Below, in pieces: positions 3,402 through 60,450 of a stretch of 64,000 nt of DNA (position 1 is the stretch's first letter; each line of letters opens with the position of its first letter). The translations under genes were made by a program, and so were the position numbers. The DNA lies in contig JASBSZ010000001.1 of the NCBI GenBank assembly GCA_030148665.1, positions 62,001 to 126,000 of the forward strand. Direction: 5' to 3'. The notes below the pieces were generated by a model. The model searched no databases. It saw only the letters and a list, made by a program, of their open reading frames with translations, and had not been told where the DNA came from. The stretch is from Alphaproteobacteria bacterium (lineage in GTDB: Bacteria > Pseudomonadota > Alphaproteobacteria > Rhodobacterales > Rhodobacteraceae).

Positions 3402-3565
3402 AATTTCGCGCAAGGCGAGGTTCGCGCCCGGCCCCGAGGGGGGCGCGCCAAGATCTGCGCAACGGATTTCACGAGTACAACGTTACAATCTGTTGAAACG
3501 ATATCACCAATTCGCGCCCGCCTGGGGGGCGGGGTCGGGCGCGAACCGGATCGCAAGCGATCCGG
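3402..3565 (-). repeat. Family-1 structured intergenic repeat, copy A
   Basis: About 165 bp, matching in reverse complement the copies at 58307-58466 and 60283-60450. Read on the minus strand it begins with the palindrome CCGGATCGCTTGCGATCCGG (3546-3565). Next comes a hairpin with 10-base arms TTCGCGCCCG/CGGGCGCGAA, the conserved stretch GAATTGGTG-N-TATCGTTTCAACAG, and finally a hairpin around GCGCGCCCCCC-TCGGGGCC-GGGCGCGAACC. No open reading frame is conserved among copies, so it is a DNA or RNA structure rather than a gene. Confidence 0.85.
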
Positions 3566-15060: not shown

Positions 15061-15338
15061 GTGATGGGGGCAGGGCAATTGCCTGAAACTCTCTTGTCGC
15101 GGTCAACGGCTGAAATGCGCCCCGATTGCCAACCGCCGGGGCGCTTGCGGCCCGGCATGCGCCCGCCCGCCCCCTCGGCGGGCGCATCCGCGCCCACCCG
15201 GGCGGCCACATGCCTCGCTTGCATTCGGCTGCACCCCATCAAGCGATTGCCCGTGATGGGGGCGCGGCAATTGCGTGAAACCCTCTTGTCGCTGTCCGGC
15301 GCCATGCGGCGGCCCCGACTGGCAACCGCCGGGGCGCT
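15061..15338 (+). repeat. Pair of diverged 85-bp direct repeats
   Basis: Copy 1 (15061-15145) and copy 2 (15253-15338) start 192 bp apart. Shared blocks in order: GTGATGGGGGC, GGCAATTGC, TGAAAC-CTCTTGTCGC, and ACCGCCGGGGCGCT. The centre is more diverged, with a 1-base indel. The unit is upstream of the pilin-like repeat gene and could carry duplicated promoter or leader elements. Confidence 0.7.
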
Positions 15339-15498
15339 CGTGGCCTGCCCCCGGCGCCGGCACATGGAATTTCCCCGAAATGGCCATAGTCCTGCCTCTT
15401 TTGCGCGCTCGAATGGATCAGGTTTCGCTCGGGTGCACGGCCTGTGTGCGCGACGGCATCCCACGGTGCCGGAATTGGCGAGAGAGGTAATGTCAGTG

Positions 15499-16926
15499 AT
15501 GAAACATCGTATAGGCAAGACGACCAACCCTTCGGTTCAACTGCCGGCCCCCGCCGAGGCGGGCTGGCCGCTGCTGTCGCAATCGGTATCGTCCGAACAT
15601 CGTGGGCCACGGTCCCGGCTGGAACGCGAATTGCGGGTGTTCGCACGCGACCAGAAAGGGGCGATCTCGACCGACAACGTGGTCCTGATGGCCGGGGTCA
15701 TCGCCATTGCCCTGCTGGCGATCGGCAACTACACGACCGGCGCCAAGGATCTGGCCCAGAACCGCAAGGAGGTCCTGTCGGGCTATCGCGGGATCAAGTC
15801 ATCGGCAACCAACAGGAAATACGCATCCACCTCGCCAACCACCGGAACCACACCGACCACCTGGACCGGAGGCACCACGGGTGGCACCACGGGCGGCACT
15901 ACGGGTGGCACGACTGGCGGCACTACGGGCGGTACGACTGGCGGCACCACGGGTGGCACGACCGGAGGCACCACGGGCGGTACGACCGGCGGCACCACGG
16001 GTGGTACGACTGGCGGCACCACGGGCGGTACGACCGGTGGCACCACGGGTGGCACGACCGGTGGCACGACCGGCGGCACCTCTTCCACATCGACATCTAC
16101 TTCCTCGTCCTCGGGGACGGCAGGCACCTCGACGGGTGGTGGCGGCGCGACCGCAGGCTCGGGCACTGGCGGGGGTAACTCGGGCCAGGGCGGACAGGCT
16201 GCGGCGACCGACGGCGTTACGGGCAATGGCGGCAAGTCTTCGGACACGAAAACATCGTCCGGCGACAGCAGCCATATGAGTGACGGCAAGAAGTCCGAGG
16301 GCGACAGCAGCCACAAGAGCGACGGCAAGAAGGCCGAGGGTGACAGCAGCCACAAGAGCGACGGCAAATCCTCTGATGGCAAGGGCAGTTCCAGCGGCTG
16401 GTCCGGCCTGTCGGACTCGAGCAGCGATTCCAGCAGGAACAGCACCGAAAAATCGAGCGACGGCGAAACCAGAACCGCCAGCAAGGGCAGCTCCAGCGGC
16501 TGGTCCGGCCTGTCCGACTCGGGCTGCGCCTGCGACAGCAAGTCAAGCCATGACAAGAAGGACAAGAAATCCGCCTCGGATCAGGAAAAATCCGCCAGCA
16601 AGGGCAGTTCCAGCGGAAAATCCAAATCCGCCGAGAACGAAAAGAAGCCCGGCGAGGACAAGGGCAAGTCATCGGGCAAGGGCAGCTCCAGCGGCAAGTC
16701 CGACAAGTCGAAATCGGCCGAGGGCAATCCCGGCAATGACAAGAAGGTCGGCAAGGCCGGCGAGAACCCCGACGGCAAGGGCGACTGGGGCGACGGAACC
16801 AGGGGGCGCGGCGACAGCAGCCACAAGGACGGCCACAAGAAGCACGAGAAAAAGAGCAGCATGCTGTTCCTCCATGACCACGACTATCTGACCGGCGGCC
16901 ACGGCGACGATCTGCTGTTCGGCTGA
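15499..16926 (+). CDS. Pilin-like N-terminus, Thr-Gly repeat stalk, RTX-like C-terminal motif; function unknown
   Basis: 475 residues. Residues about 44-90 (LRVFARDQKGAISTDNVVLM then AGVIAIALLAIGNY) resemble the short leader plus single hydrophobic helix of Flp/TadE-type pilins in this family (DEEGAVTVDWVVL...). Residues 123-194 are 18 perfect Thr-Gly-Gly-Thr units. Then come a Ser/Thr/Gly stretch, a Ser/Lys/Asp-rich part with repeated GDSSHKSDGKK (three) and KGSSSGWSGLSDS (two), and SKGSSSGKS-type units. The protein ends HDYLTGGHGDDLLFG, a single GGxGxDxLxG calcium-binding RTX motif. One CxC (GCACDS) is present. I infer a surface or secreted fibrous protein. ATG 15499 is 11 bases after GAGAGG; ATG 15490 is possible. 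No tad or type I secretion genes are nearby. Confidence 0.7.
   Translation: MKHRIGKTTNPSVQLPAPAEAGWPLLSQSVSSEHRGPRSRLERELRVFARDQKGAISTDNVVLMAGVIAIALLAIGNYTTGAKDLAQNRKEVLSGYRGIKSSATNRKYASTSPTTGTTPTTWTGGTTGGTTGGTTGGTTGGTTGGTTGGTTGGTTGGTTGGTTGGTTGGTTGGTTGGTTGGTTGGTTGGTTGGTSSTSTSTSSSSGTAGTSTGGGGATAGSGTGGGNSGQGGQAAATDGVTGNGGKSSDTKTSSGDSSHMSDGKKSEGDSSHKSDGKKAEGDSSHKSDGKSSDGKGSSSGWSGLSDSSSDSSRNSTEKSSDGETRTASKGSSSGWSGLSDSGCACDSKSSHDKKDKKSASDQEKSASKGSSSGKSKSAENEKKPGEDKGKSSGKGSSSGKSDKSKSAEGNPGNDKKVGKAGENPDGKGDWGDGTRGRGDSSHKDGHKKHEKKSSMLFLHDHDYLTGGHGDDLLFG
15865..16080 (+). repeat. 18 copies of a 12-bp coding tandem repeat
   Basis: 216 bp of the degenerate unit ACS-ACS-GGN-GGY, encoding Thr-Gly-Gly-Thr 18 times. 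Third-position variation shows higher-order units of 24 bp. Copy-number change keeps the frame, so length variation between strains is expected. Confidence 0.95.
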
Positions 16927-30700: not shown

Positions 30701-31311
30701 CCGGGGTGTTTTCCAACGCCTATGGCGGGCGGCTCGAGATGCTGCTGAAACCGGCCGATGCGCCGGGGCAGTATCGCGGCAGCATGTCGATCCGCAAGAC
30801 GAGGGTGCGCGAGGCATCGGGTCTGGCGCAGATCCTGTCGGCCATCAGCGTGGTCGGCCTGCTGGAACAGCTGGACGGCGAGGGGATATTGTTCAACGAC
30901 ATCGAGGCGGAATTCCTGTTGGGCCAGACCGGGGTCAAGCTGTATCGCTCCAGCGCGGTCGGCGCCTCGCTGGGCCTGACCATGCGGGGGGTCTACGATT
31001 TCGCCAGCCAGAGCCTGGACATGCGCGGCGTCATCACGCCGATCTACATGCTCAACGGCCTGCTCGAACAGAGCAAGCTGTTCGGCAAGCTGTTCGGCGG
31101 GCAGAAGGGCGAGGGTCTGTTCGGCTTCAACTATACCATGCGGGGGCCGGTCGATTCGCCCAAGGTCGGCGTGAACCCCCTGTCGATCCTGACGCCGGGG
31201 CTGTTTCGCGATATTTTCCGCCAGCCGATTCCGGGCATGAAGGCCCCGCGTCAGGGCGACCGGAACAGCGGCGCCCCCCCGGGAGCCGGTGGTACCGGCC
31301 CCAGCCGATGA
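27793..31311 (+). CDS. Large AsmA/YhdP-type membrane-anchored protein (DUF3971-like)
   Basis: 1172 residues. One N-terminal helix (LLWRFLAALVLTGFALGVAVGLVI, residues about 14-38) anchors a very long beta-rich periplasmic region built from AsmA-like repeats. The C-terminus (ISVVGLLEQLDGEGILFNDIEAEF ... MRGVITPIYMLNGL ... GLFGFNYTMRGPVDSPKVGVNPLSIL) is the conserved AsmA-like end of YhdP homologues. Such proteins form lipid-conducting bridges between inner and outer membranes. A 15-bp tandem repeat (about 28312-28347) encodes DAGAG units in a linker near residues 174-184. ATG 27793 is the best start, though its ribosome site is weak. The stop codon lies within the minisatellite that follows. 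Confidence 0.82.
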   Translation: MTILEKRRKSRIVGLLWRFLAALVLTGFALGVAVGLVITSGVTAPEWLRSRIEERINQNLSGMRVVIAGIRLAPFGPDLNPSLSITGAELRDADGRLRVALPSLTGTFSARALVDCRLRPIAIRMSGARLLLRRAPGGRFDISIGRRGETGAGLPEGARPASAPAGSMAPEDAGAGDAGAGDAGGRDRVTSPAATFAPGPPSDIPASVSGSLRDIIERLDQILAWPVLSRLDQIQSTDTVLFLDDRVSGRRWTFRDGAMEIRRREGGLEASVNFVLDNKRGAMAHAAFTWRRLKGQGNSEFSTRFSGVRTLDLADQVVAFDWLRVLDAPLSGAMTMDIGADGSLGRMHGVLDIGAGRVRQAASAPAVRFRGAKAYLSYDPEDQKFTFDQVVLDTDAAHIEAEGQAYLSDRVDRTVGGLIGQFRFRKLRLDPEGVFEKPLEFGSGALDMRLRVRPLSVDIGQLVLVDGDSRYVMRGRLSAGARGWTTALDLSIADVPVARLKEFWPLIYKPKTRAWMADNILGGHLNRVNAALRARPGEAPEISVGFDFHDLALRYLKRQPPIEQGKGFGSWNRNRLQLTLQEGVVNAPEGGQVNLAGSRFTIPDTRIKGAPAELELRSRATIRAMLSVLDLEPFRYLSKAGLGTDLAEGLASVEGRLGFPLVEKLDPRAVRLSIDGVLTRLRSDKLVKGKVLTSDRLDLTVDNSGMTIAGRARLGRLPVSGAWRQDLGPQGKGHSKVTGRIELSRAFLREFGIRLPADTVSGKGSGDFVIHLDKGKAPQFTLTSDLRGLALRLDAVGWRKAADVAGKLDVRGSFGTPPRIPFLHLTAPGLVAEGEVRLGRKGQLEVARFGRVDVGGWLKAPVEIRPGPGGTMTFNLDGGMLDLRHNRFGDIAARPGMGNAINVNLDRLVVSRGISLTGLSGQFNTSGGLTGSFTGAINGKARIIGTVAPLKGGTAVRFASTDAGAALRAAGVFSNAYGGRLEMLLKPADAPGQYRGSMSIRKTRVREASGLAQILSAISVVGLLEQLDGEGILFNDIEAEFLLGQTGVKLYRSSAVGASLGLTMRGVYDFASQSLDMRGVITPIYMLNGLLEQSKLFGKLFGGQKGEGLFGFNYTMRGPVDSPKVGVNPLSILTPGLFRDIFRQPIPGMKAPRQGDRNSGAPPGAGGTGPSR

Positions 31312-31395
31312 AACCCAGCCGATGACAGCGATGAAACCCAGCCGATGAAACCCAGCCGATGCAACCCAGCCGATGAAACCCAACCGATGACAGCG
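31300..31395. repeat. 14-bp minisatellite across the end of the AsmA-like gene
   Basis: About seven units of CCCAGCCGATGAAA. Two units carry GACAGCGATGAAA or GACAGCGGAG instead of GATGAAA, giving a 23-bp variant. The first unit contains the TGA stop of the AsmA-like gene (31309-31311), and the array ends about 24 bases before queA, just upstream of its ribosome site. Confidence 0.9.
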
Positions 31396-56989: not shown

Positions 56990-57825
56990 ATGACGGGATT
57001 CTGACACGGATCGCCCAGGCGCTGGAACGCCTCGCCCCGGCGCCGCAGGATATACCCGACTTCGATTCCGCCGACGGTTTTGTCTGGCATGTCGAGCCCG
57101 ACCGGCTGGAACCGGTGGTACGGATCAACCGGGTCGATCTGTCCCTTCTGGTCGGGGTCGATCGCGCACGCGACATCCTGCTGGAAAACACCCGCCAGTT
57201 TGCCCGCGGCCTGCCCGCCAACAACGTGTTGCTGTGGGGCGCGCGCGGGATGGGGAAATCCTCGCTGGTCAAGGCGGTGCATGGGGCGGTCAACGAACAG
57301 GTCGGCACGCTCAAGCTGGTCGAGATCCAGCGCGAGGATCTGCCCTCGATCGGGCGTCTGCTGAATCTGCTGCGGGGCGCCGAGGGACGGTTCATCCTGT
57401 TTTGCGACGACCTGTCCTTTGATCAGGATGACAGCCATTACAAATCGCTCAAGGCGGTGCTGGATGGCGGTATCGAGGGGCGGCCTGACAATGTGGTTTT
57501 CTACGCCACCTCGAACCGGCGCCATCTGATGCCGCGCGACATGATCGAGAACGAGCGTTCCAGCGCCATCAACCCGTCAGAGGCGGTCGAGGAAAAGGTC
57601 TCGCTGTCCGATCGTTTCGGGCTGTGGCTGGGTTTCCACCCCTGCTCGCAGGATGACTATCTGGCGATGATCCGCGGCTATTGCGATGCCTATGGGGTGG
57701 CGATCGACGACGAAACCCTGCGCGCCGAGGCGATCGAGTGGCAACAGACCCGCGGCGCACGCTCGGGCCGGGTGGCGTGGCAGTATTTCACCGATCTTGC
57801 GGGAAGGCGGGGCGTGCGGCTGTAG
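56986..57825 (+). CDS. DUF815-family AAA+ ATPase
   Basis: 279 residues. Walker [19 protein letters not shown], Walker [12 protein letters not shown], and sensor-like [12 protein letters not shown], followed by NEVEE-type [19 protein letters not shown]. The family resembles the DnaA/DnaC-like ATPases and has no settled function. It is coupled to tatC by a 4-base overlap, an arrangement I recall as common in alphaproteobacteria, suggesting but not proving a link with export. Confidence 0.88.
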
Positions 57826-57878
57826 CAGGGCCAGGGTGATTGCTGTCGGGGCTCTTCTTGGTGGCCCTGGTCAAGAGC

Positions 57879-57898
57879 GCCCGGCGTCAACGCCGGGC
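57879..57898 (+). terminator. Hairpin after the tat operon
   Basis: A perfect stem GCCCGGCG-TCAA-CGCCGGGC, about 53 bases after the ATPase stop, without a T tract. The next 65 bases (57899-57963) contain GC-rich palindromes resembling the two outer hairpins of the family-1 repeat without its middle. Confidence 0.5.
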
Positions 57899-58089
57899 AG
57901 CGCCCGCCCCGCCCCCCAGGCGGGCGCTCTGGCGCCCCCCTCGGATCGGGCGCTGCCCTCAACTCGCGATGGGATCCGGCAGGAAGGGGAACGGAAATGG
58001 CCTGGCAAGAACATGAATGGCCAGGCATGCCCCCGCTGTAGCGGCATCTGCCCATTCCCCTTTGGGCCGGTCTGGCCTATCATCGGGGC

Positions 58090-58306: not shown

Positions 58307-58466
58307 CCGGATTGCTTGCAATCCGGTTCGCGCCCGACCCCGCCCCCCAGGGCGGGCGCGAATTGGTGGTGTCGTTTCAACGGGTTGCAGCGGTTCACTC
58401 GCGAAAACCCGCACGCAGATATCAGTGCGCCCACCCTCGGGATCGGTCGCGAACCTGCCGTTTCAG
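58307..58466 (+). repeat. Family-1 structured intergenic repeat, copy B
   Basis: Same orientation as copy C. It begins with CCGGATTGCTTGCAATCCGG (58307-58326). Relative to copies A and C, one C:G pair of the stem is T:A, changed on both arms, so pairing is preserved. Then TTCGCGCCCG...CGGGCGCGAA, GAATTGGTGGTGTCGTTTCA, ACTCGCGAAA, and a diverged final hairpin ending GGTCGCGAACCTGCC. It is in the convergent gap between the small membrane gene and lipA. Confidence 0.85.
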
Positions 58467-60282: not shown

Positions 60283-60450
60283 CCGGATCGCTTGCGATCC
60301 GGCTCAAACCCGGCCCCGCCACCCAGGCGGGCGCGAATTGGTGGCATCGTTTCAACAGGTTGTGCCGCCGCACTCGCGAAAACCGCTCCGCAGATCTCCG
60401 CGCGCCCCCCTCGGGGCCGGGCGCGAACCTGGCCTTGCGTTAGAATTTCC
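60283..60450 (+). repeat. Family-1 structured intergenic repeat, copy C
   Basis: It starts CCGGATCGCTTGCGATCCGG (60283-60302), identical to copy A. The left arm of the second hairpin has decayed (CTCAAACCCG instead of TTCGCGCCCG), while GGCGGGCGCGAATTGGTG, ATCGTTTCAACAGGTTG, ACTCGCGAAAACCG and the final GCGCGCCCCCC-TCGGGGCC-GGGCGCGAACC hairpin are intact. Confidence 0.85.

Follow-up and report, generated by a model that had tools for sequence, protein, structure and literature searches.

The repeat at positions 58307-58466 of the window, by which we mean the whole 64,000-nucleotide stretch of DNA analysed here, from a marine bacterium of the Rhodobacteraceae, is a MITE-like mobile element of about 235 bp between CTAG-type sites, and its inner part is a structured module. 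A sequence-only reading had taken a 165-bp unit for the repeat; with full copies of about 235 bp between their sites, that unit turns out to be part of the element, and its core to be a separate module common to other repeat families. Pairing within the module has been kept with compensatory changes, so the folded shape seems to matter, and in other genera the copies mostly follow stop codons, between tandem or convergent gene pairs and in either orientation. With somewhat less than even confidence, we favour a family-1 MITE whose family-wide module would act as an orientation-independent hairpin at transcript boundaries, in the manner of REP sequences or the Rhodobacter puf hairpin and not of a RAYT-type REPIN.

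The window holds three copies of this family 1 at the positions and on the strands first described: copy A at 3402-3565 on the minus strand (P1 hairpin 3546-3565, long hairpin 3418-3547), copy B at 58307-58466 on the plus strand (P1 58307-58326, long hairpin 58325-58456) and copy C at 60283-60450, also on the plus strand (P1 60283-60302, long hairpin 60301-60430). The terminal palindrome of A and C indeed reads CCGGATCGCTTGCGATCCGG, and that of B CCGGATTGCTTGCAATCCGG. All gene calls come from a simple codon-usage script, some calls of which miss genes; by these calls the genes on either side are convergent for A and B and tandem for C, in agreement with the earlier description of intergenic copies, two of them between convergent genes. 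The long hairpin of copy B consists of P2, a loop of about 65 nt (GAATTGGTG..TCGTTTCAAC) and P3, and copy C has a mutated outer 5' arm (CTCAAACCCG). The conserved linker said to join the hairpin modules lies within this loop of about 65 nt, and other long-loop copies carry unrelated loops. Alignment of the flanks with those of full copies found no recognisable left arm in A, B or C (no alignment) and an eroded right arm; the three window copies are decayed members of a dispersed repeat.

That the repeat is dispersed far beyond chance, as had been claimed, is evident from a BLAST search with copy B, in which 40 of 76 candidates were scored: its own assembly (2,772,929 bases, or 2.77 Mb, in 48 contigs) contains at least 40 matches, about 15 of them near full length, the best non-self match having an E value of 1.7e-46. 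The earlier proposal was to be abandoned if the genome held no further copies; it holds many more. Full copies run in the order CTAG, left arm TCACCYGGAATCGAAGTTCGC..., P1, P2, loop of about 65 nt, P3, right arm ...TTTCGTTTCCACCATA and CTAG, with P1 reading CCGGATYGC..GCRATCCGG and with imperfect terminal inverted repeats (left GTCACC.GGAATCGAAGTTCGC, right, as reverse complement, TATGGTGGAAACGAAATGCGC). An exact pattern taken from P2 and the linker matched five stretches of named genomes; these belong to three MAGs whose titles read Rhodobacteraceae, Paracoccaceae or Alphaproteobacteria. Within the genus, matches number 43 in the genome of the window (G000), 19 in G004, 15 in G009 and 0-3 in seven others.

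The mobility of family 1 is best seen at one locus, L007, on which the clean empty site with CTAG duplication rests. There the element of G000 lies between CTGG and CTAG, and two related species, G004 and G009, have a single CTAG between closely similar flanks (those of G000 are 95% and 94% identical to G004, and 96% and 88%, the latter over 48 bp, to G009). The insertion amounts to 239 bp net, made up of 235 bp between the two sites and a 4-bp target duplication; the comparison shows that the element entered a CTAG and duplicated it. Copy B is absent from the equivalent locus of G009 and copy C from that of G004, but at these two sites and at L008, where one or two relatives are without the element, the spacer sequence differs too, and none of them is a clean empty site. 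At one further locus, L055/L053, the copy of G004 has the long loop and that of G009 has lost it; the deletion begins and ends in GCCCCCC repeats, which is what slippage at a palindrome would produce.

The same inner module is present in two other MITE-like families of this genome, whose terminal repeats read CAGGGCAATCGC..GCGATTGCCCTG and whose target duplications, partly delimited by eye, measure about 8-11 bp. A family-2 insertion carrying the module adjoins copy B (57827-58034, plus strand, long hairpin 57895-57959) and has the direct repeat GCTGTAGC, of 8 bp, on either side (57819-57826 and 58035-58042); the site at 57819-58042 is unoccupied in G009, with the 8 bp present singly. A family-3 element at 15071-15252 (plus strand, ends GGGCAATTGCCTGA..TCAAGCGATTGCCC, long hairpin 15154-15215) has a flanking direct repeat of about 10-11 bp (GTGATGGGGG), its length set partly by eye, and is adjoined by a second, partial copy at 15264-15350 on the plus strand, both together occupying 15071-15350. 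Family 3 has more than 20 matches in the genome, several of them close to contig ends, and it therefore probably breaks the assembly. The window also contains tandem arrays of 12-bp and 14-bp repeats at 15814-16113 and 31300-31395, the first inside a called reading frame.

Bacterial MITEs are short elements with terminal inverted repeats and a target duplication. Families 1, 2 and 3 are likewise short and all have terminal inverted repeats; their target duplications are CTAG, 8 bp in the tested family-2 copy and about 9-11 bp, by eye, in family 3, and comparison with an empty site confirmed the duplication for family 1 at L007 and for family 2 at 57819-58042. They depart from ordinary MITEs in that all three, although their ends and target duplications are of two or more kinds, have one inner module in common, which also occurs elsewhere without those ends being recognised, apparently so in other genera.

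The covariance model and the search of related genera that the sequence-only reading had proposed extend the module well beyond this genome. At E<=1e-6, a model built from 18 short copies (R1) had matches in 43 of the 149 genera sampled from the family, and a second from 37 rows (R2) in at least 69 of the 149 at E<=1e-5, both counts being lower bounds because scoring covered 27 to 35 candidates in each genome. Run at E<=1e-6 on 190 genomes sampled across the class, R1 gave two matches, in the genome of the window and one other of the same family, and none in one further same-family genome. Named carriers are plasmids of Phaeobacter, Leisingera, Tritonibacter, Paroceanicella and Ruegeria (66 records). 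One module sequence had no match among 50,697 phage records, and a phage origin was set aside. With Rfam 15, tRNA alone reaches the gathering cut-off in the window, and the module of five loci has no match even at E<=1, so that membership of an Rfam family is rejected. The CcsR1 sRNA has a sub-threshold match at L004 1311-1391, adjoining a family-1 copy (40 bits, gathering cut-off 65.3, E 6.7e-07). No described family had been recognised from the sequence, and none was found in Rfam or in the searched literature on repeats, MITEs, REP sequences or hairpins of Rhodobacter, Rhodobacteraceae, Rhodobacterales, Paracoccus, Roseobacter and Ruegeria (including PMC6238624), a body of text that leaves most subscription papers outside and does not imply absence from print.

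When folded, the module has P1 first and then a long hairpin, formed by pairing of the P2 5' arm with the P3 3' arm. The loop of this hairpin ranges from about 5 to about 80 nt, and its P2 side has a C-rich bulge of 6 nt. The long hairpin is made of two inverted REP-like arms, P2 aligning lengthwise with the reverse complement of P3 except for a 6-nt insert in P2 and small differences. Selection for pairing had been proposed from the change of both arms between window copies; these copies are variants of a dispersed repeat, and compensation among the three of them is therefore weak evidence, whereas wider alignments show the stems to covary, the very result whose absence had been named as a refutation. 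In an alignment of 32 long-loop copies, 98.8% of the 256 cells of P1 are paired, a level that 2,000 shuffles did not exceed (highest 95.7%), and four of its eight pairs show both-side changes. In the long hairpin, 94 matches give such changes at 13 of 24 pairs, a count that includes eight wrong-strand or doubtful rows of the alignment (A4), which were excluded from the counts of P1 loops, G-U against A-C cells and T-runs (86 rows for loops and T-runs). A further alignment, A5, of 37 rows (29 from 29 other genera, five from the genus itself and three from named plasmids) has 96.8% of 887 cells paired and both-side changes at 12 of 24 pairs; cells with both sides changed number 83, where shuffles give 19.8, and sliding the partners destroys the signal. 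These rows were chosen by a model that rewards pairing and are biased towards structure.

The 5' arm of P2 has two conserved partners. Position 17 of the alignment pairs with position 125 in 37 of 37 rows and with position 30 in 34 of 37, 13 rows being changed on both sides, so that two exclusive folds are both kept. Local P2 hairpins were 99-100% paired, local P3 hairpins about 79-82% and the long fold 93.2% (18 rows), rates on which replacement of the long hairpin by local P2 and P3 hairpins was rejected; in later rows the long fold and local P2 both find support. On the transcribed strand, G-U and A-C cells are about equally frequent: the copies between cysS and cimA described below have 11 and 12, and the tandem rows of A4 have 12 and 11. 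Overall, G-U pairs are rare, with 4 among 887 cells. The P1 loops of 86 folded rows comprise 39 CNNG-like (C..G) tetraloops and 30 G..A triloops or tetraloops, and none of the T..C kind.

The mapping of copies against gene orientation, also suggested at the outset, showed long-loop copies to be mostly convergent. By script label, 20 long-loop copies comprise 13 convergent, six tandem and one divergent; five further long copies had been labelled short (L042, L047, L049, L050 and L055), and with these the figures become 16, seven and two of 25, compared with four convergent among 32 window gaps of at least 40 bp. The script missed other long copies, including window copy C, and its 20 include one with another loop (L018) and one locus counted in two species (L002 and L032). 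Of the short copies, 6 of 31 were called divergent and 5 of 31 were flagged inside a called reading frame. In other genera, 69 loci divide into 43 tandem, 18 convergent, three divergent and five without resolved context. The 38 loci with both called gaps between -20 and 300 bp, a filter applied by eye, are 30 tandem (14 in one orientation, 16 in the other), seven convergent and one divergent. In a Leisingera plasmid the module separates a TRAP solute-binding gene from its permease gene, and in a Phaeobacter inhibens plasmid it sits within the rfb operon.

One gene boundary recurs. At 6 of the 30 tandem loci it is cysS that ends at the module, and in all six the next gene is citramalate-synthase-like, which its HMGL-like and HCS_D2 domains lead us to infer is cimA; the genome of the window has the same cysS-cimA order. 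A cimA match exists in 139 of 149 genera, and the upstream region was read in 80, a non-random set consisting of the 40 most similar to the cimA of this genome and about every second of the rest. Upstream lies cysS in 74 of 80 (lax tblastn, E<=1) or 70 of 80 (E<=1e-3). The 74 pairs comprise 21 abutting, three with spacers of 13-59 bp, 49 with spacers of at least 60 bp and one unclear, and 27 of the 49 longer spacers hold the module at E<=1e-3 (25 at E<=1e-5), with P1 first in 11 and last in 16; two further hits of this search fall where cysS was not seen. Slot copies are paired in 646 of 680 cells and changed on both sides at 14 of 24 pairs (29 hits), 15 of the 44 rows of their alignment, A6, having been left out of this count and of that of G-U against A-C. 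Five slot copies (L290, L314, L348, L281 and L307) have long loops of about 65-80 nt, seemingly unrelated in sequence to the family-1 loop.

The motif CAGAGG precedes 9 of the 16 P1-last slot copies, which suggests that those bearing it may descend from one old insertion, with stems since changed with compensation. Presence in the slot clusters on a weak tree drawn from short cysS ends (17 changes against a shuffled mean of 22.3, 1 of 200 shuffles being as low), and on the same weak tree orientation barely clusters (7 changes against 9.0, a value reached by 22 of 200 shuffles). In view of that weakness, the idea that gains and flips in the slot could be traced cleanly was rejected. The module is no general rule of operon spacers, being present at 1 of 19 sucD-sucA loci. 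Ten module-free cysS-cimA spacers (L301, L318, L324, L328, L330, L333, L334, L336, L339 and L340), inspected by eye, often contain other palindromes, of GGGGGCT..CCCCC or AAATTTTC types. It looks as if this slot wanted some hairpin.

As to what moves family 1, an IS5-type element (DUF4096 and DDE_Tnp_1) abuts the CTAG of copy L011, and its own CTAG-flanked ends start with GTCACC, the remainder differing. A DDE transposase should recognise the terminal repeats of a MITE and not an inner module. The ends at L011 make an IS5-type transposase the likeliest mover. No autonomous partner with the full ends of family 1 was found among eight DDE_Tnp_1 places across three genomes: none has such ends of its own, and the sole matches, beside one place, are those of copy L011. 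Y1 transposases (PF01797) were found neither in G000, G004 and G009 nor in eight of ten module-rich genomes, with matches in three of the other seven genomes of the genus; a RAYT-driven REPIN was rejected, since these enzymes are missing where copies abound.

Sites that follow stop codons, often between tandem genes and seldom in divergent gaps, agree with a hairpin that acts at transcript boundaries, like those of malE-malF and puf. Once transcribed, the module would form very stable hairpins that stop 3'-5' exonucleases and perhaps slow RNA polymerase, and the upstream message would outlast the downstream one, as with the malE-malF structure or the puf hairpin. MITEs bearing the module may be better tolerated at gene ends and hence spread it, and family 1 was probably moved in trans by a CTAG-targeting DDE transposase of IS5 type. 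The want of a G-U excess over A-C on the transcript counts against selection of an RNA fold, and a role at the level of DNA stays a serious, if rather unlikely, rival. The structure would then be a cruciform or single-stranded hairpin bound by a protein such as gyrase, a nucleoid protein or a transposase acting on single-stranded DNA, and its placement after stop codons would mark where it is tolerated or useful for supercoiling. The rarity of G-U, the two orientations at one slot and the preponderance of CNNG-like and G..A loops in P1, kinds that are stable in DNA too, agree with this, but the recurrent placement after stop codons is not directly explained, the protein partner is hypothetical and Y1 transposases are absent from G000, G004, G009 and most module-rich genomes.

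A purely selfish repeat, whose paired ends are kept for transposition alone and whose copies persist where they do least harm, would account for the recent insertions, the species-specific copy numbers and the three MITE-like families carrying the module. We hold it to be improbable, as the module in 27 of 49 cysS-cimA spacers, with compensatory stem changes, is hard to reconcile with it short of a host role or a strong target preference, and on general grounds the DDE transposase should see terminal repeats. Very improbable is a classic intrinsic or bidirectional terminator spread by transposition, for all that the hairpins are GC-rich and follow stop codons and that long-loop copies are convergent in 13 of 20 (16 of 25 relabelled): runs of five or more T within 15 nt of the hairpin occur in 2 of 86 rows on one strand and 0 of 86 on the other, and many copies lie between tandem genes. 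With T-runs nearly absent after the hairpins, this explanation is disfavoured.

The transcript-boundary hairpin that we prefer has relatives among known systems. REPINs are REP doublets in inverted order, extragenic and able to form a hairpin in single-stranded DNA or mRNA (PMC3116915), and the module, with its two inverted REP-like imperfect palindromes, long hairpin and extragenic position, has such an inverted doublet. It differs in the absence of the Y1 transposase (RAYT) from genomes where family 1 is commonest, in its extra P1 hairpin, in occurring in tens and not hundreds of copies carried inside DDE-type MITEs, and in a foot of GGTTCG, GGGCAG or similar, read by eye from the alignments, in place of the GTAG or GTGG type of tabulated REPs (PMC2817692). 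Intercistronic stabilising hairpins, such as malE-malF of Escherichia coli and puf of Rhodobacter capsulatus, lie between tandem genes after a stop codon (PMC5927463), as does the module in the Leisingera TRAP copy; unlike them, the module is one dispersed and covarying sequence family, in both orientations and without G-U preference on the transcript. A bolder formulation, to which we give appreciable but clearly minority credence, is a Rhodobacteraceae-wide, RAYT-free palindromic boundary element. Its structure would work in either orientation, probably as DNA or on both strands, would have been long held between cysS and cimA and be able to switch between two exclusive covarying folds (17-125 and 17-30), and in some species would have been spread by MITEs that carry it as cargo and whose ends are of two or more kinds.

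An anonymous intergenic repeat thereby becomes a testable system: many genera have natural copies of one module at the same orthologous slot, facing either way, and others have no element there. With such a set, what intergenic palindromes do can be compared directly. The finding also suggests a way in which MITEs can carry a host-neutral or useful module for gene ends.
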